From Oscillatoria nigro-viridis PCC 7112 (GTDB lineage: Bacteria > Cyanobacteriota > Cyanobacteriia > Cyanobacteriales > Microcoleaceae): 64,000 nt of DNA. This document shows, one piece after another, positions 52,179-64,000 of the stretch (position 1 is its first letter; each line of letters opens with the position of its first letter). The translations under genes and the position numbers were made by a program. The notes under the pieces were generated by a model. That model saw only the letters and a program-made list of their open reading frames with translations. It did not search any database and was not told the DNA's origin. The stretch is taken from assembly GCF_000317475.1 (NCBI RefSeq), contig NC_019729.1:310001-374000 (forward strand). The letters run 5' to 3'.

Positions 52179-52816
52179 GGGACTTTAAATTTCGTCAAGG
52201 CTGCTTTCGTCTTCTACTGATAGCACATTTCGTCCGTATTTTGGCATATATTAGGCTTCACTTAGGCGAAGTCATCACTCATTGGTCGTTAGTAATTATT
52301 AGAAATAGCACCGCACTACATATAGTGTGTCTGCGTCCAAGACTGTACAACCTAGTTTCCAAAGCCTTTACTGTTGCGATCGGGTGTTGCGTAATCCCCT
52401 AAACTACGTTACTTTTTATACAGCATACAGTCAAGCTGTTGGGCGATCGCCAGTCCTAAATTCTCACTCATACCAAAATTCGTAGTCTGACACTTCAGTA
52501 CACGGAAGTGGATTAAAGCTTCCATAAAGTTTACTTCCTGATAGCCAAAAGCACTTGCGCTCGATAAAAGTTACGGATATTCTCAAATCTATCTGTTAAC
52601 AACAGCAATAAAAAAAACAACTTATTGCGATCGCATCAATTTTTTAGCCGCATCGGCAAGTTTTCACCTGTCGATATCGCAGCTTCCGTCCTCAATAAAA
52701 AAAACAAAATTCCAGCAGCGTCTGGACTCGCTTTGCTTGCAAAATTTTAAAAATCAACTCCTCAAATTAGGAATAATTTGAGCAATTTTCATCATCAAAA
52801 AACCAAACTTTAAATC
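52179..52816. other. 638-base leader and promoter region of the giant protein
   Basis: It separates the divergent DUF1574 gene from the giant gene. It contains HIP1 sites near 52442 and 52628 and a 9-bp hairpin at 52761-52782 (CTCAAATTA, GGAA loop, TAATTTGAG), 35 bases before the ATG. The hairpin could influence translation. No ORF or RNA gene was recognised. Confidence 0.45.
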
Positions 52817-55800
52817 ATGTCACCAATCGAAGCATCTACCCCAAAACTAACTGCCAATATTTCCCTCATTCCCGACATTCCAGAAGAATTGCAACTAGCA
52901 AATTCTACCAATAATTACTATTCTCCCCCGAAAAATCTCCTAACAACTAACGAAACATCCTCCACAAACTCCAGCATCGAACTATTATCATCAAACAACC
53001 AAATCCTCGATAACAGCCCAGAAACACCTCCCCAACAAGCAGAGATAGACGCCTTCATCCTCAACAAAGATTCAACACCAACAACCAACAACATCCCCGA
53101 AAAACCGCAAACATCCACCACTCAAACCGACGCAATCACAGGCGATACAGCCAAACCAGCAACTCAAAATAACATTTCTTTCGACTCCGGCATTTTCCAA
53201 GCAGACGAAACAGGTAAAATTCTGTTCGATTACCTATCAGACGGAGGCCGGTATCAAGGAGAACTAGCAATTATCAGCCTGACAGGAATGCAGGAATTTG
53301 TTCCCGATTCCGAAGCATTTATCAGAGAAGCAGCCAGACGCGCTTTAAGCAACTCCTCCCTCGGTTACATCGCAATTTCCGACATTACAGAAGCCGCAAA
53401 ATTCTCTAGCTTCGAGGGAGAAAACAACTTCAATATCGGAGAATACCGAGGAATTAAAACCTTCGCAATGACGCCGGGAGACGAACTTGGCATCATCGTA
53501 GTTCCCAACGGCACAATACAAGAAGCGTACAATAATCCAGCGATTGGCGGCGACAAAAAACCATTATTCTCAATGGCAACAGCTAATTCCAGCGATGCTT
53601 TTCAACGGGGACAAATTGCCGCTGTTGCGAATGGCGGCAGTATATTTGTCATGGAAGATATGGGGATAGGAGAAGGGAGCGAGGCTGATTACAATGATAT
53701 CATCTTTTCCCTCAAAGGCGCAACCCCTAAAGTCATTTCAATGGATGATTTAATTGCCAAAAACTCCGATTGGCGTACATCAGAAAAAGGCAAAGAATTG
53801 ATAGGTGACGCTGCGCCAAAAACAGAGACTAAATTAGAAGACAAAAAAGCAGATACTACTTCTGCAACAAATCCTGTTGAAACAAAACCAGAAAATTCTC
53901 CAGCGACAGAAACCAAAAACCCGACTGTTTCCGAAACTCCCAACTCCGAGACAAATCCTGTTGAAACAAAAACCGAAAATTCCCCTGTAATTGAAGACAA
54001 ACAGCCGACTGTTTCGGAAATTTCGCATTCCGAGACAAATCCTGTTGAAACAAAAACCGAAAATTCCCCAGCGACAGAAACTCAAAACCCGACTGTTTCG
54101 GAAACTCCCAACTCCGAGACAAATCCTGTTGAGACAAAAACCGAAAATTCCCCTGTAATTGAAGACAAACAGCCGCCTGTTTCGGAAAATATCTATTTCC
54201 CAAAAAATCCTGTGGAGACAGAAATCGACTTCATCACAGGTGACACAATTGAAAAACCCGTCTTTATCCAACCAGAAAAACTAGAAATACCAGTAATACC
54301 CGCAGAATCCACAGACATTCTCACTGGGGAAATGGAAAATACCTCCCCAACTCCTATCGACAGCCTCGAAAATGCCGGCGAAACTGCTGACAATTTACCG
54401 CTAATTTCTCCCGATGAAATTTCCACGCTGTGGGAAAGCCTCAACAGCATATTAGCCCAACAATTTCCTAACATTCCCGAAACAGAATCCAGTCAAAATC
54501 ATCAACCATCCGCATCAGAATATTCAGAATATATAGTTACCGACAGCCAAACTATTATTCCCGAAATCGCTGTCACCGAAAACTATGACTCGCAACCATC
54601 GGAAAACATTACCGCCGACAGCGAAAATCAGCCGCCAACAACCATCGGCGAATTTGTAAACCCCGATTTCGAGTGGGAAAACATCGCCATTACTCCCGAA
54701 ATATTATCCGACGCAAACAATCAGCCAGACAATTCACTTCATATCATTCCCGACTCCGAAATCGCAACTACAACTGACAGCAACTCCGAACCAACCATCA
54801 GCGAATACACAATCACCGACACCGAAACCCAACCAGAAATAACCCCCAACCTCCCCCAACAAAACCAACCATTAATCGGCATAATCGACACCGGCTTTGT
54901 CGCCAACAATCCCAACATCGACTACAGCCAAATCATCCTCGGTAAAGACTTAATAGATGGCGACAATAATCCGTTACTCCAACCAAATGAAGGAAACCAA
55001 CATGGAAACACGATTTTAGATATTATTAACGACTCCAGCAATCAAAGCGACACCAAAAAATCGACTCCGATTTGGTTGGGACGAGCAACTGGTAGCGGGA
55101 ACTGGTATCAATCCCTGATTGAATTTGTAGACGCAGCCAAAGCTGCCAAACAACCCAATGCCGTTGTCAACCTCAGCTTCGACTTAACTCAAATTAACCC
55201 CGACGGCACGCAAACCACACGGCACAAATTGACAGCAGAAGAAACCGCAGCATTGAAATATGCAAAAGACAATAACATCCTGATTGTAGCAGCCGCTGGA
55301 AATGAAGGGAATCTCGTTTCTGCCCTCGGACAAGCCTCCACAGAATTTGACAACATCATCACCGTCGGCGCATCTGAAAATAACTATCGCGCCGGATATT
55401 CCAGCTATGGAGAAGGCTTGGATATCTTAGCACCATGTGACATTCCGCAAACAGCAGAAGCTGCAACAACCGAAACAAAACAAGGCACATCGATCGCAGC
55501 CGCAAAAGTCACAAATACCCTTTCTCAAATGTGGGCTGCTAACCCATCCTTGGACTACCTACAAATCAAAAACATCCTCCTCAACACAGCCAAAGACATC
55601 GACGTACCCGACTGGGATGAAAGGACGGGATACGGCATTTTAAATTCCGAATCAGCAATTGCCACCTCTGCTGAAACCATCCCTACAATTCCAGTATTGG
55701 CAGCAGCAAAACTATTGACAAAACCCTTAATTGATGTTGGTGCAAATACGAGCAACTCTCCCAATTCTACCGAAGCCAAACCGTCAGAAAGAGCAACTGC

Positions 55801-58666
55801 AACCACCGCGCCAGGCACGCCAAAGACTACAAGTCGATCGACCGGAGACTACAACGTTGGCACCAGTTCTTATACCACAGACTTAGCGCCATACAAAACC
55901 ACCTCTACCAGTAGTTCCAACGGCACAACTACCACCAACTCTCGAATCCTTAGCAGCCTGTCAAACACTGAGTCAAGTTGGGATAAAAGCACTACCAAAA
56001 CCAACCACAAGGGCGAGTCTTTTGATGAATCCACCAGCGATTCAACTACCAATGCTGTTACCTACACCAGCAAAAGCTTTTCTCAAAACTCAACAGAAAA
56101 CAAAAATCAATGGCAGGAAAACCGCAGCCGAGTTAAATACGAAGGAACTCGCAGCGACAGTAGCGAATCGGCTCAGAAATCCCGCAGTTCTTACGACTAT
56201 ACCACTCCCACGTACACCAGATATGATGCCTCAGAAAGTTACCGCAACAGCAAGTCGCAATCTAACAGCCGATACGGTACGAACCTCAGCATATATAACG
56301 GCAACCGTCAAGATGATTGGGGTTCAAAATCTACTACCAACACTCGCACTACCAACGGCAACAACATATCAACCAGCAAGAGTGCAACTCAAACCGCAGG
56401 CAATGCCAAGTGGACGAATGGCAGTAACGGTAGCAGTTCCAACAATACCCACAGCGGTGAAGAAACCACAGTCAGCACATCTAATTCTACTAACAGCAAC
56501 AGCAGCGGTTTCTCGAAAAGTAGCAACAGCAACGATGGCTATTCTGTCACCAACTCAACTTGGGATAACAATACAATTAACGGTGTAGCTATCAACAGCA
56601 ATACCCGTGACGTTTATTCAGAAAGCAGTACCAACAATCAAAGCAGTTACGATGACGGCAGGTCAAAAAATCACAGTTATCAAGACACTTATACTGTCAA
56701 TCAATCCGAGCAAACCAACAGCAGTCAGGGTTCCTCATATCGGCAAAACAACCGCAACAATAATTACTCTGTCAGGCAAGGTAATGATACGCAAACCTAC
56801 AAACACGGGCCGCAAACCAGCAGCAGGATTACGGATAGCTATTCGGTCACAAAATCCGATGGTTATAGTGCCAATAGTTCGGGGAAAGTCACTTCTAAAA
56901 ACAATCAGGAAAGTTATTCCGAGAACTTTGTTCAACACGATAGCGAGTATAAGATAGATGCTTATACCACAACTACTACCGGGGATGAACAGACAATAAC
57001 ATCAACTCGATCCAACAGCAGCAATGACGGGACTAACAACGCTTCATCCAGTAGCAGCGATACTGTTCGTACCCGCAACGGACAAACAGTTACAGTTTAT
57101 AAAGATGGGCGCAAAGATGAAACACAAACGAGCAGTTACGAGAGATGGTGGAGCGACAACTCTACGGATAAGGGAGTAACTACTTATACTTCGGGGAGTT
57201 CAACTTGGAGTTCGACTTACAGGAGGACGGAGTTTAAAGGCGGTTACAGTTGGAGTGAAACCATCAGCGGTACTGATACCGAATCAGTAACGAAAGGAGG
57301 TGTTACTACTAGCAAGCAAACCAATTGGAGTTGGACCAGAAGCGGGACTGTGTGGGATGACGGGCGCAATAATTGGAGTGAGAGTTGGTCGAAGTCTAAT
57401 TGGGAAAATGGGAAGTCGATACCCGGTGAATCCGAGACGGCGAGGGGGTCTTACGATCCGAAGGGGACGGGGACGCAGACTGATAATTTGCCCAAAGCTG
57501 GGGAAGCGCCGCGGTTGAATAAGCCGCCGAAGAATGTTGTGGATTTGAATAAGCAGCCGAAGTACAAGCCACAGCCGAGTCAAGAGTTTTATGAGCAGCC
57601 GGCTTCATACGACAAAAAGTTTGCGGACAATTTTCCTACAGAAGATCCGTATGCTGCTGTTCCTCCACCTGCAAGCTGGCCTCCTAAAGATATAGGCTCC
57701 TATTGGCTGTCTTATACGGGAACATTGAAATCATCAGCCGAAAGACGCAAAATCTTTCAAGATATCATCAAAAATCGATCGATCCAAAAAGTCTACATGA
57801 ATGCGCTGTCTGTAGGGGGAACTACTTTTAGTTACGGGGGTGGAATGCCGATTACAGGTGGAGATATATTTGCCGAATTTAAAGAAGAACTCGATCGATA
57901 CAACCTAGCACATCCCAATAATCGGAGAACGATTGATGTAATTGGTTGGTTTGAGGGAACTGGGCTAGCAGCATCAACGAGCCCAATGTATAAAGCTGCA
58001 CAGAGAGCGAACGCTGTGCTGGGTCTTAAAGGTGATGGCGGTGCTTCCTATGTTGACCTCGTGCATCCTACTGTTTGGGGTGAACTACAAAATATAGCGA
58101 AGGACTTCATTAGCAAACATGGTGGTTTGGTAAAGGAAATTATTTTCGACGATCGCCTGGGAATTCCCAAGGCAGCAGAAGCAGATGTTATTAATTTGCA
58201 TCGAGCAACAATCGCGACTGACGGAGGTCCCGGCGGTAAAAGCTGGATTCAAAGGGCATTAACCAAGAATCTGACCAATCTCAAGAATGCACTTCCCAGT
58301 ACCACATTTAGTTTTTCAGGAAATCTACCAGCAGTGGCGTTTGAGCATCAAAATCAAGAGCTTGCAAAGTGGCTTGCAGATGGGATAATTAATGGGGGAT
58401 ACAACTTACAGTTTTATAAAAATGGCAGTAATTACCCAGTGTTTGTTAATGACTACAACACATATGTTCCTCAAATGTTGAGGTTACTAAATCAAAACAA
58501 AAATCGTTTTTCTGTAAGTATAGGCTACTATGCTCAGAAAGAATATCTCAAGCGCCAAGAACTCATTCAACAAATTAGTTTCCTGAGAAACAACAAGGTG
58601 GCATCCCTTCTTCCCTCACAGATAATAGGCTTTGACTATCGGACAATTAGAGACATCCAGCAGTAA
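52817..58666 (+). CDS. Giant subtilase-bearing polymorphic-toxin-like protein with glycosidase-type tip
   Basis: 1949 residues, no Sec signal. Residues about 110-300: DUF4114-like domain (FQADETGKILFDYL; MEDMGIGEGSEADYNDIIF). Residues 351-462: four 28-residue TNPVETK repeats, then an acidic Pro/Glu-rich stretch. Residues 680-955: subtilisin-like protease with D691 (GIIDTGF), H729 (NQHGNTIL), S892 (QGTSIAAAK) and oxyanion Asn in AAAGNEGN. Residues about 990-1593: Ser/Thr/Asn/Tyr/Trp-rich linker ending KYKPQPSQEFYE. Residues 1594-1949: tip resembling a GHL10/family-10-like glycosidase barrel (KVYMNALSVGGTTFSYGGG; IDVIGWFEGTGL; EIIFDDRLGIP). WG-repeat gene starts 20 bases after. Linker recurs in a headless copy with another tip. 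Toxin role is inferred; export could use a signal-less route. Confidence 0.85.
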   Translation: MSPIEASTPKLTANISLIPDIPEELQLANSTNNYYSPPKNLLTTNETSSTNSSIELLSSNNQILDNSPETPPQQAEIDAFILNKDSTPTTNNIPEKPQTSTTQTDAITGDTAKPATQNNISFDSGIFQADETGKILFDYLSDGGRYQGELAIISLTGMQEFVPDSEAFIREAARRALSNSSLGYIAISDITEAAKFSSFEGENNFNIGEYRGIKTFAMTPGDELGIIVVPNGTIQEAYNNPAIGGDKKPLFSMATANSSDAFQRGQIAAVANGGSIFVMEDMGIGEGSEADYNDIIFSLKGATPKVISMDDLIAKNSDWRTSEKGKELIGDAAPKTETKLEDKKADTTSATNPVETKPENSPATETKNPTVSETPNSETNPVETKTENSPVIEDKQPTVSEISHSETNPVETKTENSPATETQNPTVSETPNSETNPVETKTENSPVIEDKQPPVSENIYFPKNPVETEIDFITGDTIEKPVFIQPEKLEIPVIPAESTDILTGEMENTSPTPIDSLENAGETADNLPLISPDEISTLWESLNSILAQQFPNIPETESSQNHQPSASEYSEYIVTDSQTIIPEIAVTENYDSQPSENITADSENQPPTTIGEFVNPDFEWENIAITPEILSDANNQPDNSLHIIPDSEIATTTDSNSEPTISEYTITDTETQPEITPNLPQQNQPLIGIIDTGFVANNPNIDYSQIILGKDLIDGDNNPLLQPNEGNQHGNTILDIINDSSNQSDTKKSTPIWLGRATGSGNWYQSLIEFVDAAKAAKQPNAVVNLSFDLTQINPDGTQTTRHKLTAEETAALKYAKDNNILIVAAAGNEGNLVSALGQASTEFDNIITVGASENNYRAGYSSYGEGLDILAPCDIPQTAEAATTETKQGTSIAAAKVTNTLSQMWAANPSLDYLQIKNILLNTAKDIDVPDWDERTGYGILNSESAIATSAETIPTIPVLAAAKLLTKPLIDVGANTSNSPNSTEAKPSERATATTAPGTPKTTSRSTGDYNVGTSSYTTDLAPYKTTSTSSSNGTTTTNSRILSSLSNTESSWDKSTTKTNHKGESFDESTSDSTTNAVTYTSKSFSQNSTENKNQWQENRSRVKYEGTRSDSSESAQKSRSSYDYTTPTYTRYDASESYRNSKSQSNSRYGTNLSIYNGNRQDDWGSKSTTNTRTTNGNNISTSKSATQTAGNAKWTNGSNGSSSNNTHSGEETTVSTSNSTNSNSSGFSKSSNSNDGYSVTNSTWDNNTINGVAINSNTRDVYSESSTNNQSSYDDGRSKNHSYQDTYTVNQSEQTNSSQGSSYRQNNRNNNYSVRQGNDTQTYKHGPQTSSRITDSYSVTKSDGYSANSSGKVTSKNNQESYSENFVQHDSEYKIDAYTTTTTGDEQTITSTRSNSSNDGTNNASSSSSDTVRTRNGQTVTVYKDGRKDETQTSSYERWWSDNSTDKGVTTYTSGSSTWSSTYRRTEFKGGYSWSETISGTDTESVTKGGVTTSKQTNWSWTRSGTVWDDGRNNWSESWSKSNWENGKSIPGESETARGSYDPKGTGTQTDNLPKAGEAPRLNKPPKNVVDLNKQPKYKPQPSQEFYEQPASYDKKFADNFPTEDPYAAVPPPASWPPKDIGSYWLSYTGTLKSSAERRKIFQDIIKNRSIQKVYMNALSVGGTTFSYGGGMPITGGDIFAEFKEELDRYNLAHPNNRRTIDVIGWFEGTGLAASTSPMYKAAQRANAVLGLKGDGGASYVDLVHPTVWGELQNIAKDFISKHGGLVKEIIFDDRLGIPKAAEADVINLHRATIATDGGPGGKSWIQRALTKNLTNLKNALPSTTFSFSGNLPAVAFEHQNQELAKWLADGIINGGYNLQFYKNGSNYPVFVNDYNTYVPQMLRLLNQNKNRFSVSIGYYAQKEYLKRQELIQQISFLRNNKVASLLPSQIIGFDYRTIRDIQQ
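53867..54202 (+). repeat. Four 84-bp tandem repeats in the giant gene
   Basis: Units start at 53867, 53951, 54035 and 54119, with a partial fifth at 54203. Each encodes 28 residues beginning TNPVETKTENSP. Units 1 and 3, and 2 and 4, resemble each other most (ATETxNPTVSETPNSE against VIEDKQPTVSE), indicating duplication of a 168-bp pair. Confidence 0.9.
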
Positions 58667-58686
58667 AAATCAGAAGGAAAAATTCC

Positions 58687-60051
58687 ATGTCACTCGTGAA
58701 AAGATTGCGCGTTTTATTTTATTTGGCTTTAGTTGCTGTGTTTTTAATTATGACTCAACTTGCTAGCTCTGAAACGAGTAAATCGGACAATGAAAAGTAT
58801 GGTTTGATTGACAAAAATGGCAAGTATGTGGTTGAACCCCAATTTGATGGTATTGATAATTTTCAAGAAGGGTTAGCCGAAGTAATGGTCGATGGAAAAA
58901 TCGGCTATATCGATCGAACAGGTCAAGTAGTAATCCCCTTTCAATTTGAATGGTCTACTGAAAGTTTTTCAGAAGGATTAGCTGTGGCAAAACTCAAGGG
59001 TAGCGAAAAAGTAGGTTACATTGACAAAACAGGTAAGTATGTCATACCACCTAAATTCGATCGAGCTGACAGTTTCCACGAAGGACTTGCAGTAGTTGTA
59101 GTCAACTACAAATACGGCTACATTAACAAGCAGGGCAGTTATGTAATCCCACCAAAATTTGATTATGCTACTGAATTTAGGGAAGGTATAGCAGTAGTGC
59201 AGAGCGCACAAAAATATGGCTTAATCGATCGAACAGGTAAGTATATCGCGCCACCGAGTTTCGACCACATCCATAATAGCGACGCTCGCGAAGGATTCAG
59301 CACTGCTGCTGAATTTAAAGACGGACTGATGCGAGTAGCTGTAGGAGGTAAGCTTTGCTATAGGGGAGGTGTTGCTGGTGGCAAGTGGGGGTATATCGAT
59401 CGAATGGGAAAGTTGGTTATTCCTTTGAAATTTGCCACAGTAGGGGAATTTTACAACGGACGAGCAAAGGTGTCTATGTCTGCTCTTGATTGTGAGGCTG
59501 GTAGCCCTATTAAATGGGATTATATCAACCAGTCAGGAGAGTATATCACTCGGCTCCTATTCGATGATGCTTATAATTTTTCAGAAGGAATGGCGGCGGT
59601 AGAAATCGGTGGTAAATCGGGTTATATTGACTTGTCGGGAAAATTGGTCATCCCCCCTCAATTTATATCGACCAGGGAATTTTCTGAAGGGCTAGCAGCT
59701 ATCAACAGTAGTGAAAATGGACTATACGGTTATATTGACAAAACAGGGAAGTTGCTAATTGCCCCTCAATTTAACTGGGCCGAAAATTTTTTGAATGGGT
59801 CGGCAATGGTGCAAGTGAATGACAAGCAAGGTATAATTGACAAGACAGGAAAATATTTAATTGAACCAAAATTCGATCTAGTTAGTGAATTTTATGAAGG
59901 ACTGGCACGGGTAAATTTAAATGAAAAATGGGGATACATCGCTCGCACGGGAAAACTAGTAATCGATGTGAAATTTGATAGTGCGAGAGATTTCGATCGA
60001 GGAATTGCGATCGTAGGTGTGAAACAAAAGACTGCGAACAAGAATAGCTAA
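58687..60051 (+). CDS. Exported WG-repeat protein, candidate immunity to the glycosidase tip
   Basis: 454 residues. An N-terminal hydrophobic segment (residues 8-24, VLFYLALVAVFLIMTQLA) ending near ASS suggests export or anchoring. Eleven WG-type repeats of about 35-45 residues follow, each with the pattern GYIDKTGKYVIPPKFD and F-EGLA. AGAAGGA is 8 bases from the ATG, and the gene starts 20 bases after the giant gene stop, so the two are probably co-transcribed. WG-repeat proteins are surface or binding proteins in many bacteria and have been found beside toxin loci. The immunity role is inferred from position and export. Confidence 0.82.
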   Translation: MSLVKRLRVLFYLALVAVFLIMTQLASSETSKSDNEKYGLIDKNGKYVVEPQFDGIDNFQEGLAEVMVDGKIGYIDRTGQVVIPFQFEWSTESFSEGLAVAKLKGSEKVGYIDKTGKYVIPPKFDRADSFHEGLAVVVVNYKYGYINKQGSYVIPPKFDYATEFREGIAVVQSAQKYGLIDRTGKYIAPPSFDHIHNSDAREGFSTAAEFKDGLMRVAVGGKLCYRGGVAGGKWGYIDRMGKLVIPLKFATVGEFYNGRAKVSMSALDCEAGSPIKWDYINQSGEYITRLLFDDAYNFSEGMAAVEIGGKSGYIDLSGKLVIPPQFISTREFSEGLAAINSSENGLYGYIDKTGKLLIAPQFNWAENFLNGSAMVQVNDKQGIIDKTGKYLIEPKFDLVSEFYEGLARVNLNEKWGYIARTGKLVIDVKFDSARDFDRGIAIVGVKQKTANKNS

Positions 60052-60068
60052 GGAAAAAGAGGGCTTGA

Positions 60069-60512
60069 GTCGATCGCACTTTGATATTACGGGCGATCAA
60101 ACTTTCTTAAATTACGGGCGCTCGAACTTTCTTAAGTTACGGTCGATCGTACTTTCTTAAATTACGGGCGCTCGCACTTTCTTAAATTAGGGGGAATCGA
60201 ACTTGTATCTTACGGGCGCTCGTACTTTCTTAAACTACGGGCGAGCACACTTTCTTAAATTAAAGTCGATCGTACTTTTTAAATTAGGGGCGCTCGAACT
60301 TTCTTAAGTTACGGTCGATCGTACTTTCTTAAATTACGGGCAATCGCACTTTCTTAAATTAGGATCGCTCAAACTTTTATCTTGCGGGCGATCGTACTTT
60401 TTGGATTAGGGGCGAGCCAGTATTCTTGAGGGGATCTCGGGCGAGCTATTCTACGGGCGATCGGATTAATGGGCGATCGAATTAGCGGGAGATCGGATTA
60501 ACGGGCGATCGA
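60069..60512. repeat. Array 1: about 20 degenerate ~24-bp tandem repeats
   Basis: About 14 units of 23-25 bp with consensus GGGCGATCGNACTTTCTTAA and an ATTAC-like tail, variable at the ATC/CTC and N positions. About six shorter, more degenerate units follow (GGGATCTCGGGCGAGC, then GGGCGATCGGATTAAT-like). Units near 3-5 and 10-12 repeat as a block. It starts 17 bases after the WG gene stop and ends in GGGCGATCGA right where homology to the giant gene begins. No spacers of CRISPR type. This is the whole content of the gap. Confidence 0.9.
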
Positions 60513-62155
60513 ACATTATATCGGCAGAACAATCGGCACAATAATTACTCTGTCAGGCAAGGCAATGACACGCAAACCTACAAACACGGGCCGCAAACCA
60601 GCAGCAGGATTACGGATAGCTATTCGGTAACTAAGTCCGATGGTTATAGTGCCAATAGTTCCGGTAAAATCACTTCTAAAAACAATAGTGAAACTTATTC
60701 GGAGAACTTCGTCCAAAGCGATAGCGAGTATAAGATAGATGCTTATACCACAACTACTACCGGGGATGAACAGACAATAACATCAACTCGATCCAACAGC
60801 AGCAATGACGGGACTAACAACGCTTCATCCAGTAGCAGCGATACTGTGCGCACCCGCAACGGGCAAACAGTTACAGTTTATAAAGATGGGCGCAAAGATG
60901 AAACACAAACGAGCAGTTACGAGAGGTGGTGGAGCGACAGCAATACGGATAAGGGTGTAACTACTTATACTTCGGGGAGTTCAACTTGGAGTTCGACTTA
61001 CAGGAGGACGGAGTTTAAAGGCGGTTACAGTTGGAGTGAAACCATCAGCGGTACTAATACCGAATCGGTAACGAAAGGAGGTGTTACTACGAGCAAACAA
61101 ACCAATTGGAGTTGGACCAGAAGCGGGACTGTGTGGGATGATGGTCGGAATAATTGGAGTGAGAGTTGGTCGAAGTCTAATTGGGAGAATGGGAGGTCTG
61201 TGCCTGGTGAGTCCGAGACGGCGAGGGGGTCTTACGATCCTAAAGGTACGGGGACGCAGACGAATAATTTGCCTCAAGCTGGGGAAGCACCGCGGTTAAC
61301 TAAGCCGCCGAAGGATATTTTGGAGTTGAATAAGCAGCCGAAGTACAAGCCGCAGCCGAGTCAAGAGTTTTATGAGTTGCCGATCGCCAATCCAGAGATT
61401 GAGAAAAAATTTCCAGGAGATTTTTTTGCTGGCAATCCAGCGCCACGCAAACCTACTTTCAAAGAACAAATAGAAAAATTGTTGAAGAGTGGGGCGATCG
61501 CTAACTATAACCAGATCGTTGGCTTAATTATCCAGAATAATAGCCTGGAAGATTTGAGGTCAGTAGTTGGCGACGTAGGTATGCGGACATTGATTGTAGA
61601 TAAGTTTCGTCAAAAACCAGAGATGGCAACTGCGATTATGGCAGCTTTACTTAAAGGTATGCAACGGTGGCAGAATCCGGCACCTAATGATTTTGTTCTG
61701 CACTTTGATGTCGATAAAAGCAGCGATCCTATGTCTTATGATGCAAATATGAATTGCTGGGAAATGATTTTATATGCAGCATTTCTTTGCGGACAAATTA
61801 CTACCAGTCAAATTCGTGAGTTTTTTAAAAGAGCTAAGTACGGGCCTGGGTTCTTTTCGGGTATGCCCATGATGGGTTATGATGAAAGTCTCCATTCTAT
61901 GTCACTTTACCCAGCAGCAAACAACAGGCAACAATCAGGCCCTTACAACCAGGACAACTTCTTTTTTATAGAACTTCCGATAAAGGAAATCCAGATCATG
62001 TAGCTATTGCGCTTGGTGGCGGAAAAGCCGTTAGTTTATGGAATCAACCAAATAACAATAAGCGGATACAGATCATTGATGTTCTCGCATTAAATGGTAG
62101 CATCCAAGTCGGTCAACCAATTACAGATATAATAAAAGGAGAGAAATGGAAGTAA
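60513..62155 (+). pseudogene. Silent cassette 2: headless linker copy with NlpC/P60-like tip (frameshifted)
   Basis: 60518-61376 matches 56737-57595 of the giant gene over 859 bp without any indel and in the same frame. The frame is open from 60486 but has no start codon, so the copy is headless. After TCAAGAGTTTTATGAG the tip differs: an N-terminal helical part (KPTFKEQIEKLLKSG), then ANMNCWEMILYAAF with the candidate nucleophile Cys (codon 61755). The tip is cut by a one-base frameshift between about 61930 and 61970. Beyond it the other frame reads LLFYRTSDKGNPDHVAIALG with the His (61997) and ends TAA 62155. Together this resembles an NlpC/P60 or papain-like peptidase. The stop overlaps the next gene by ten bases. 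The frame-A ORF ends at 62003. Confidence 0.85.
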
Positions 62156-63393
62156 TAGTAAGATATTGGCGCTCAATTTTGTCGGTTGGCTTGGCTTGTT
62201 GGCTCTGCTTAATTTTGAACGCAAAACACCAGACATATTGGCAACCAGAAAAACCAATGAAAGCTATTAACTGTCACAATTTTCAAATTTGGACTATTGC
62301 TTTTATTGAGTGGAATAATTCAATCAAGGAAGATATAGTAGAACTAAAGCCACTTAATGCAGCTCGAATTATATCTGGACCAGGCCCAAAATCTTTCCCA
62401 GCGAGACCTTATATAAAAACCTATGCCAGCCCCGGAGGATTGGCCAGCACTGTTTACAAAGGTGATGACGAGACAATGCCAATTGCCCTTTGGGTAGGAG
62501 ATACTGCGAGACTGATATCCCTATCAGAGACACCACTCGATCTTAGCGCTCGAAGTGATGGTGGAGTGTGGATTAGCACCCACCAAACGCTACTATTCCA
62601 CTACGATCGCGCGGGAGCTTTGAAGCATAGAGTAAACCTTCCAGGGACAAACATTGTAGGTGTTGATGGAGATGCTGTTTGGGTAATGACTGATGAAAAA
62701 GCTTGGTTTGTGAATGTAAATGGTGATGTCCGCGGTTCGTATCCGTGGAAAGGATTTAACCGTTCAGCAGGCTCGAAACAAGCAATCTGTCAATTAGAAA
62801 GAGACAAAATACGTCGCATACAATGTCTGGAACCGGACGGAAGCAAGCATTTTGTTAATATTTCATTACCTAAAAGCCCCAGCGGAAAGCTTTTGTTTTT
62901 CTCAGACGATAAGCTCCTCACTGGCTCTATTGGTAGCGGTGATTTGGGTTACTACAGCACTGGAGGTATTGCTGCCGACCTAACTATAGAAAATGCGGGT
63001 ATGACTGGATCAGGTGATGCCTTTATATCTATGCGTACTGATGATGATTTGGCTGAAGTGTGTTTAACTAAAGGTACGGGGCAACGATTTGCTTTGAAAT
63101 ACAAAATTCCATCTTTTCCTCTCCCAGTCATACTTAGTGTGCTTGCGGTTGAGGGCGATCGCACGCTGGTTTACGGTGCCGATCGCGCTGTCTGGTACAA
63201 GGGTTCTCAGATTGAAAAGAGTTTTACAGTGGACGATAATGTCTATCGCAAGGAGATATTTCCTCATCACTGGAGGACTGCTACCAATTTTGTAACTGCC
63301 AATAGCTCAGATGGAACCATAATTATTTCAACCAGTGGTCCAACTGGAATGGCATTGATTGGAATGCGTTGGCATCCTGAACCTCAACGATAA
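62146..63393 (+). CDS. Exported protein, candidate immunity to the NlpC-like tip
   Basis: 415 residues. An N-terminal membrane or signal segment (residues 10-25, SILSVGLACWLCLILNA) precedes a beta-rich region that looks like a propeller (LISLSETPLDLSARSDGGVW, NIVGVDGDAVWVMTDEKAWF, DRTLVYGADRAVWYKG). No known family. ATG 62146 lies inside the last codons of the tip gene, and a GGAGAG site precedes it by a few bases. Such overlap is usual for toxin-immunity pairs and is the main reason for the immunity suggestion. It is unrelated in sequence to the WG-repeat protein, as expected if each tip has its own partner. Confidence 0.7.
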   Translation: MEVIVRYWRSILSVGLACWLCLILNAKHQTYWQPEKPMKAINCHNFQIWTIAFIEWNNSIKEDIVELKPLNAARIISGPGPKSFPARPYIKTYASPGGLASTVYKGDDETMPIALWVGDTARLISLSETPLDLSARSDGGVWISTHQTLLFHYDRAGALKHRVNLPGTNIVGVDGDAVWVMTDEKAWFVNVNGDVRGSYPWKGFNRSAGSKQAICQLERDKIRRIQCLEPDGSKHFVNISLPKSPSGKLLFFSDDKLLTGSIGSGDLGYYSTGGIAADLTIENAGMTGSGDAFISMRTDDDLAEVCLTKGTGQRFALKYKIPSFPLPVILSVLAVEGDRTLVYGADRAVWYKGSQIEKSFTVDDNVYRKEIFPHHWRTATNFVTANSSDGTIIISTSGPTGMALIGMRWHPEPQR

Positions 63394-63398
63394 TCAGC

Positions 63399-63877
63399 AG
63401 GCGCTCGCACTTTTTAAATTACGGTCGATCGCAATTTCTTAAATTACGAGCGCTCGCACTTTCTGAAATTAAAGTCGATCGCAATTTCTTAAATTACGGG
63501 CGCTAGAACTTTCTTAAATTACGGGCGCTCGAACTTTCTTAAATTACGGGCGCTCGAACTTTCTTAAATTACTGTCGCTCGGACTTTTATCTTACTGGCG
63601 ATCGTACTTTTAAAATTAGGGGCGATCGTACTTTCTTAAATCAGGGGCGCTCGAACTTTCTTAAATTACGGTCGCTCGAACTTTTTAAATTACGGGGGCT
63701 CGCACTTTCTTAAATTACGGGCGATCGCACTTTTCTAAAGTAAGGGCGATCGTACTTTTAAAGATTACGGGCGATCGTACTTTTCTAGATTACTGGTGAG
63801 CGCACTTTTCTAGATTAGGGGCGAGCGCACTTTTTAGGTTTCGGGATCTCGTCTATTTCTAAATGGCGGGCGATCGA
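63399..63877. repeat. Array 2: about 20 ~24-bp tandem repeats, same family as array 1
   Basis: It begins five bases after the stop of the putative immunity gene. About 18 units match the array 1 consensus (GGGCGCTCGAACTTTCTTAA with ATTAC tails; several identical), the last few degrade (GGGATCTCGTC) and the array ends GGGCGATCGA directly before giant-gene homology resumes. The order of unit decay is the same as in array 1. Confidence 0.92.
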
Positions 63878-64000
63878 CAATACGCAAAAGACAATAACAT
63901 ACTGATTGTAGCAGCAGCCGGTAACGAAGGAACTCTCCTCTGTGTCCTCGGACAAGCCTCCACCGAATTCGACAACATTATCACAGTCGGCGCATCCGAC
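63878..64000 (+). pseudogene. Silent cassette 3: headless copy starting inside the subtilase domain (cut by window edge)
   Basis: 63881 onward matches 55259 onward of the giant gene (YAKDNNILIVAAAGNEG), same frame, high identity and no indel to the window end. It begins upstream of cassette 2 relative to the giant protein, within the protease fold (Asn of the oxyanion hole). There is no start codon. Its tip lies beyond the window. Confidence 0.88.

Follow-up and report, generated by a model that had tools for sequence, protein, structure and literature searches.

The DNA analysed here, a 64,000-nucleotide stretch referred to as the window, corresponds to C1:310001-374000 in the genome of Oscillatoria nigro-viridis PCC 7112 (8.27 Mb, 6 contigs). 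C1 is the window's contig, L009 designates the window's carrier region, and other L and G numbers designate loci and genomes of relatives; positions without a prefix are those of the window. The central feature is a plus-strand gene (52817-58666) encoding a full-length 1949-residue protein, the carrier, in which an N-terminal segment is followed by a DUF4114 domain, repeats, a subtilase domain, a linker and a C-terminal tip. Pfam placed DUF4114 at residues 218-301 (53468-53719; PF13448, 3.8e-17) and Peptidase_S8 at residues 684-940 (54866-55636; PF00082, 4.2e-23), and reported nothing else in the protein up to E 1. Degenerate 84-bp tandem repeats (3.8 copies by trf, 53867-54188) lie 3′ of the DUF4114 segment. 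The linker spans 605 residues (986-1590; 55772-57586), 46.4% of which are Ser, Thr or Asn, and its second half is common to two orphan cassettes located downstream. The tip, designated class A (57674-58663), is possibly a glycoside-hydrolase-like barrel. This domain order and the extreme Ser/Thr/Asn richness of the linker had been read from the sequence in a first-pass annotation; Pfam, trf and composition agree with both.

The subtilase residues Asp692, His730, Asn830 and Ser893 were retained in 16 of 16 aligned group members and in 11 of 12 members of a wider set. Pfam found no family in L067, a carrier whose subtilase nonetheless has 72% identity and retains the catalytic residues. No export domain or signal sequence was recognised in the carrier by Pfam or hydropathy scanning, and none of the nine carriers with a visible N-terminus had a hydrophobic stretch there (16-mer mean ≤0.56). 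Pfam likewise found no TPS domain, haemagglutinin repeats, RHS repeats or eCIS_core in the carrier.

Homologues had been expected to share the N-terminal 1590 residues and to differ in the tip. The tips do differ and the subtilase and linker are shared, but the head is not constant. The N-terminal segment occurs in two versions, with 33-38% and 70-81% identity to that of the window. DUF4114, scored by Pfam on ten frames and by tblastn on all 13 carriers with an N-terminal part on the contig, was present in five (L009, L065, L066 in part, L077 and L078) and absent from eight (L064, L067, L069, L070 and L073-L076). A constant DUF4114 head was consequently rejected; since carriers of the same group lack the domain, the head is modular too. 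The window's DUF4114 contains an acidic Asp/Asn-rich motif, and work on PilY1.1 (PMC9109919) ties DUF4114 to calcium and sugar binding. Where present, the domain may bind a surface glycan. At the linker-tip junction of L077 and L078 we observed a short RTX-like Gly/Asp motif with weak HemolysinCabind matches below cut-off. The window's genome also encodes two DUF4114 proteins without subtilase (L097:1326-11423 and L102:7741-12702), which end in an ART-PolyVal domain and a calpain-family protease.

Directly 3′ of the carrier, a plus-strand gene (58687-60051) encodes a 454-residue protein with a signal-like N-terminus, in agreement with an earlier description of it as exported, and with 11 WG-repeat stretches matched by Pfam. 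Its family lies 3′ of class A tips in 3/3 cassettes, which makes it the probable immunity gene of tip A. Repeat scans then detected a degenerate array of 25-bp repeats (60086-60415) and 16-bp tandem repeats (60453-60511), the latter adjoining a headless copy of the linker on the plus strand, orphan cassette 1 (60518-61382). This copy is 93% identical to carrier DNA over 865 bp of linker, after which the sequence switches to another tip. The orphan 1 frame has no ATG, GTG or TTG before 60846. Its plus-strand tip, of class B with an NCWE motif (61392-62116), is split over two frames: the tblastn pieces 61392-61892 and 61853-62116 differ in frame, with the conserved Cys motif in one and the conserved His part in another. 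The next plus-strand gene (62146-63393) encodes an exported-looking protein of 415 residues with a signal-like N-terminus and is the probable immunity gene of tip B, its family lying 3′ of class B tips in 7/7 counted cassettes. A second 25-bp array (63400-63876, repeat scans) overlaps the first bases of orphan cassette 2 (63863-64000, plus strand), which continues to C1:377114 as a 1083-residue frame that is open to its end and carries a class C tip. Orphan 2 is 75% identical to the carrier over 2.3 kb, beginning inside the subtilase at 63863; the gene behind it (C1:377142-378626) is an LRR gene whose N-terminus is lipoprotein-like. The carrier-orphan matches have E = 0 at the DNA level, far beyond chance.

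The first-pass annotation had thus correctly recognised two headless copies, the first with a different tip and its own next gene, with the correction that the orphan 1 tip is frame-broken. It had also raised the question of more cassettes past 64000. Orphan 2 does extend beyond that point and others occur in relatives, but a third was not found in this genome, in which the linker model matches three places only; C1:380001-400000 held no further cassette among ORFs of at least 120 residues.

If the locus is the polymorphic toxin system argued for below, the orphans may have either of two meanings. They could be a store of donor sequences rather than mere relics, a suggestion we regard as somewhat doubtful. 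They could instead be no more than earlier tips that were displaced and retained for the sake of their immunity genes, with no switching store, and this we judge to fall just short of an even chance. In favour of the second meaning, orphan 1 has a frame-broken tip beside an open immunity gene, and Zhang et al. 2012 (PMC3482391) interpret immunity genes in strings as what past replacements left behind. Against it, the tip and LRR gene of orphan 2 are both open and are 83% and 79% identical to their counterparts in another genome, and the orphan 1 linker is 93% identical to the carrier. The linker DNA of carrier and orphans is similar enough for homologous exchange.

Each of the two window orphans starts near one of the 25-bp arrays. 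Such arrays occur 3′ of the partner gene twice here and also in L065 and L066; in L063 the array follows a further small gene, and another array is present in L085. At the stringency used, a repeat copy was found in 6 of the 41 loci scanned, and the rest of this genome has only two weak sites (C1:5617176 and 5617841). We would guess that the arrays may act in cassette exchange. A CRISPR-like array with a period of about 74 lies in a relative at L063:1468-2310.

Carrier and orphans reside in an accessory island whose window part spans 52231-64000 and which ends at C1:379095. Its extent was defined by comparison of flanking DNA with three relatives (G018, G020 and G012) that are island-free at the same site. 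Because flank matches, at 90-93% identity, stop at L009:2230 and resume at L009:19096, the island measures about 16.9 kb. Between the flanks there are 545, 543 and 469 bp in G018, G020 and G012, respectively, and the matched flank pieces lie about 1.5 kb apart. Five relatives that lack the linker family have both flank genes; the flanks in G011 are more diverged (72-87%) yet consistent with an empty site, and in G008 the two genes are on separate contigs. The upstream flank gene has a DUF1574 match just below the Pfam cut-off (27.7 vs. 29.1 bits). Downstream of the island lie a small gene and then a second gene that we take to be ppc. Cassettes adjoin the same downstream gene in L064, L071, L080 and L082, and another conserved gene pair in L068, L070, L072, L079 and L083. 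Within the window no Rfam match reached the gathering score, and L009:10040-13900 had none at E 0.1; promoter-like sites numbered 29 vs. 30.0 in shuffles and terminator-like sites 22 vs. 17.4.

The linker family is patchily distributed. A linker model detected it in 13 of 29 genomes of the genus, including that of the window. An initial search of 39 relatives with one protein had given ten with the family, every one from the same genus, and none among the 15 from other genera. A search of the GTDB collection with a linker alignment (two peptide patterns) returned 17 loci, all cyanobacterial, which correspond to 11 genomes of the window's genus. In the collections searched, the family was seen solely in one cyanobacterial genus, which is Microcoleus-like.

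Within this genus, the subtilase-linker body carries many C-terminal tips that are unrelated to one another. Among loci that retain the subtilase wholly or partly, 13 carriers (the window's included) bear eight kinds of tip on subtilases that are 72-100% identical. Tip A occurs in L009 and L067 and tip B in L064, L066, L069, L073 and L081; the others are found on single carriers, namely D63 (L063), D78 (L078), E1 (L065), E2 (L070), F (L082) and G (L077). A single tip shared by all strains, the outcome named at first pass as contrary to its reading, did not arise. No head is visible for L063, L081 and L082, whose sequence starts at the edge of a contig. A pre-toxin stretch is common to D63 and D78, and likewise to E1 and E2. 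When the tips of 22 linkers were pooled into seven classes and placed on the linker tree, tip class overall followed the tree no better than shuffled labels: 13 tip-class changes were counted, compared with a mean of 13.2 for the shuffles, and 123 of 200 shuffles were as low as the observed value. When classes were taken singly, A and B clustered slightly (43/500 and 59/500 shuffles as low, respectively). The linkers of the window's carrier and orphan 1 both fall among six, bearing tips A, B, D and E, that form a fully supported group without internal resolution. Orphan cassettes were also found in L071, L081 and L082, together with a cut one in L069. Five of the ten carrier loci with both head region and tip on the contig are split over frames or truncated, which stems from either decay or draft errors.

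We determined whether tips and next genes are associated as families by tblastn of partner proteins against 24 loci. Agreement was found in 21/21 counted cassettes (A, 3; B, 7; C, 2; D63, 1; E1, 2; F, 4; G, 2), two of the four counted F tips being headless fragments. Seven of the cassettes define the pairs, so 14/14 agreements are independent, and none of 100000 shuffles of the pairing table, which was compiled by hand, reached the observed agreement. The count leaves out cassettes that run off a contig (L073, L078, L084 and the last of L069 and of L081) as well as L070, whose tip E2 has no convincing next gene, and L083, where the gene after tip D83 also occurs behind other tips. In a hydropathy scan, which is not a signal-peptide predictor, a hydrophobic signal-like N-terminus was present in 12/12 partners of tips A-C (16-mer mean at least 2.2) and in 0/9 partners of D63, E1, F and G (16-mer mean at most 1.66).

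Other gene arrangements were seen near cassettes. Serial pairs of tip F and partner occupy L071:16343-19092 and L082:3212-5874; in each, the second tip is a headless fragment and its partner is open. Behind cassettes of three genomes there is a recurrent small gene (L063:13392-13955, L069:11604-12137, L083:2743-3234), phosphatase-like by eye, whose L063 copy has no Pfam match and which may be an extra immunity gene.

Two tips belong to known toxin families by Pfam matches above cut-off. Tip F, on one relative's carrier, is a CdiA_C domain (1.2e-17), and tip C contains PG_binding_1 (4.9e-8), CHAP (1.1e-5) and DUF7689. The other eight tips scanned had no Pfam family above cut-off, nor did NCBIfam yield any at cut-off for ten proteins; several toxin and immunity candidates are without a Pfam family. 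Tip B has an invariant NCWE motif and a later His in six relatives and a CHAP match that falls below threshold, and the predicted structure (pLDDT 68.4) had no PDB match at E ≤0.001. Tip A has no Pfam match, and a sequence search of the PDB returned a single match at E 0.68. Its low-confidence structural model, built from two sequences (pLDDT 55.6), gave 30 PDB matches at E ≤0.001, the best to GH20 (5.5e-6, TM 0.48), with the PgaB and PelA barrels among them; this is the evidence for the possible glycoside-hydrolase-like barrel, along with a remote relative that has a GHL10 domain. Tip D78 resembles the GogB/EspK C-terminus (2.2e-7, 29.8 bits vs. a cut-off of 1049). We consider it likely that tips A-C are active on the cell wall. 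Since C is the only one of the three with a family above cut-off, the assignment is firm by family for C alone.

A different explanation of the whole locus is that it belongs to a modular family of secreted proteases and wall-lytic proteins serving nutrition, cell turnover or mat remodelling, with ordinary hydrolase ends and next genes unrelated to protection. Subtilase giants of the wider genus do terminate in wall hydrolases (Hydrolase_2, CHAP, Amidase_3, M23, GH19). The pairing of tips with next genes and its agreement in compartment, the CdiA_C tip, the headless cassettes and the presence of tip B with its partner on unrelated carriers all run counter to this explanation, which we regard as improbable.

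Those unrelated carriers were found outside the genus. Of 388 genomes of the class, six contained relatives of tip B, and two of those six belong to the window's genus. In three of the four cases outside the genus (L145, L146 and L148), a homologue of immunity protein B, 35-41% identical, adjoins the tip; in L147, the gene after tip B is unlike it. The NCWE-tip carriers in L145-L148 are of Ig-like, unnamed and eCIS_core types. Tip A matched in 28/388 genomes; most of these matches were weak and fell on frames 394-489 residues long. The sole out-of-genus match on a long frame (1897 residues, G134) carries GHL10 (9.4e-15), and a WG-repeat gene 33% identical to that of the window lies just upstream. 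The order in G134 is reversed: the WG gene comes before the long frame, and the tip domain sits at the N-terminus of that frame. WG repeats are common, so the link between tip A and the WG gene is weaker than that for tip B.

The eCIS_core domain occurs on two of the tip B carriers, L147 and L148, of which only L148 has the immunity B homologue. This association raises the question of whether an extracellular contractile injection system counts the carrier among its effectors, with subtilase in place of the PVC metallopeptidase, and subtilisin is indeed listed among PVC-route proteases by Zhang et al. 2012 (PMC3482391). A sheath match was found in 4/13 linker-family genomes, compared with 2/16 without the family. 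The carrier itself lacks eCIS_core, and sheath-family matches are absent from 9/13 linker genomes, this one included; we consider this explanation very improbable. The sheath search (PF04984), whose control matched in 3/14 known genomes, gave no candidate here and matched 6/29 genomes of the genus, and eCIS delivery was accordingly disfavoured.

Five observations converge: tips are swapped, tips and next genes pair, the pairs agree in compartment, some cassettes are headless, and presence is patchy. They make a polymorphic toxin system on a subtilase carrier the leading interpretation of the locus by a wide margin, and as judged from sequence it is very probably correct. The first-pass annotation had proposed an interpretation of this type, and the pairing of tips with next genes, which lay beyond its view, strengthens it. 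In the mechanism we propose, the carrier would be exported, the subtilase would cut it and free the tip, and the tip would enter a neighbouring cell. Tips A, B and C would attack the wall, and CdiA_C and others would act in the cytoplasm. The product of the next gene would shield the producing cell in whichever compartment the tip acts, and recombination in the linker would swap tip and immunity gene together. On whether the subtilase cuts its own carrier, we are evenly divided. Since the delivery routes of polymorphic toxins vary and the kind is defined by cassette logic, the missing export domain weakens the case for delivery and not that for the kind.

Known systems share parts of this layout. 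Polymorphic toxin systems as presented by Zhang et al. 2012 (PMC3482391) have a body with a variable C-terminal toxin, an adjacent immunity gene, cassettes and an in-built protease. Subtilisin is given there as a processing protease for T2SS as well as PVC routes, and DUF4114 is not named in the 300,000 of its 354,187 characters that were searched. They differ from the present case in that the carrier has no Pfam export domain and its linker is seen in one cyanobacterial genus. The CdiA_C tip of a relative, with its small next gene, resembles contact-dependent inhibition (CdiA/CdiB/CdiI), in which orphan modules lie behind the main gene; the TPS domain and haemagglutinin repeats of that system were not found in the window carrier. 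Rhs proteins exchange tip and immunity gene behind a common body, and RHS repeats were not found in the window carrier either. PVC-type eCIS toxins share tip B on the two eCIS_core carriers, one with the immunity B homologue, and differ in that the window carrier has a subtilase instead of eCIS_core and its genome has no sheath match. Other DUF4114/subtilase giants of the genus are alike in having DUF4114 before the subtilase in most of those examined, with subtilases about 48-53% identical (44-56% for most members in a second comparison), and differ in having PPC, SH3, LGFP or PA14 modules and wall hydrolases instead of the Ser/Thr/Asn linker. L086, L088, L089, L092, L094 and L095 encode subtilase giants, most with DUF4114, that end in Hydrolase_2, CHAP, GH19, Amidase_3 or M23 domains, or in SLT below cut-off.

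We class the locus among the known polymorphic toxins, as a variant and not as a new kind. As a new route, we can envisage a signal-less giant with a subtilase that would leave the filaments and free its tip at or in the neighbour, an optional calcium-lectin-like DUF4114 that would aim it, and modules bounded by the linker and, in one clade, by 25-bp arrays that would guide exchange of whole cassettes; from the present sequence comparisons we think this unlikely. Descriptions of a subtilase-carrier toxin of this type were not found in the open-licence PMC literature, which is no proof of absence, and open-licence PMC papers naming DUF4114 do not deal with such toxins, judging by titles and the start of abstracts.

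Polymorphic toxins are described as relatively rare in cyanobacteria by Zhang et al. 2012 (PMC3482391). On our reading, a Microcoleus-like genus has a strain-variable toxin set, which could give related strains different weapons for use on their neighbours. The locus and its relatives provide concrete toxin and immunity candidates, one pair of which is shared with an eCIS_core carrier, as well as island-bearing and island-free genomes at one site. Together these make kin discrimination in filamentous cyanobacteria testable.
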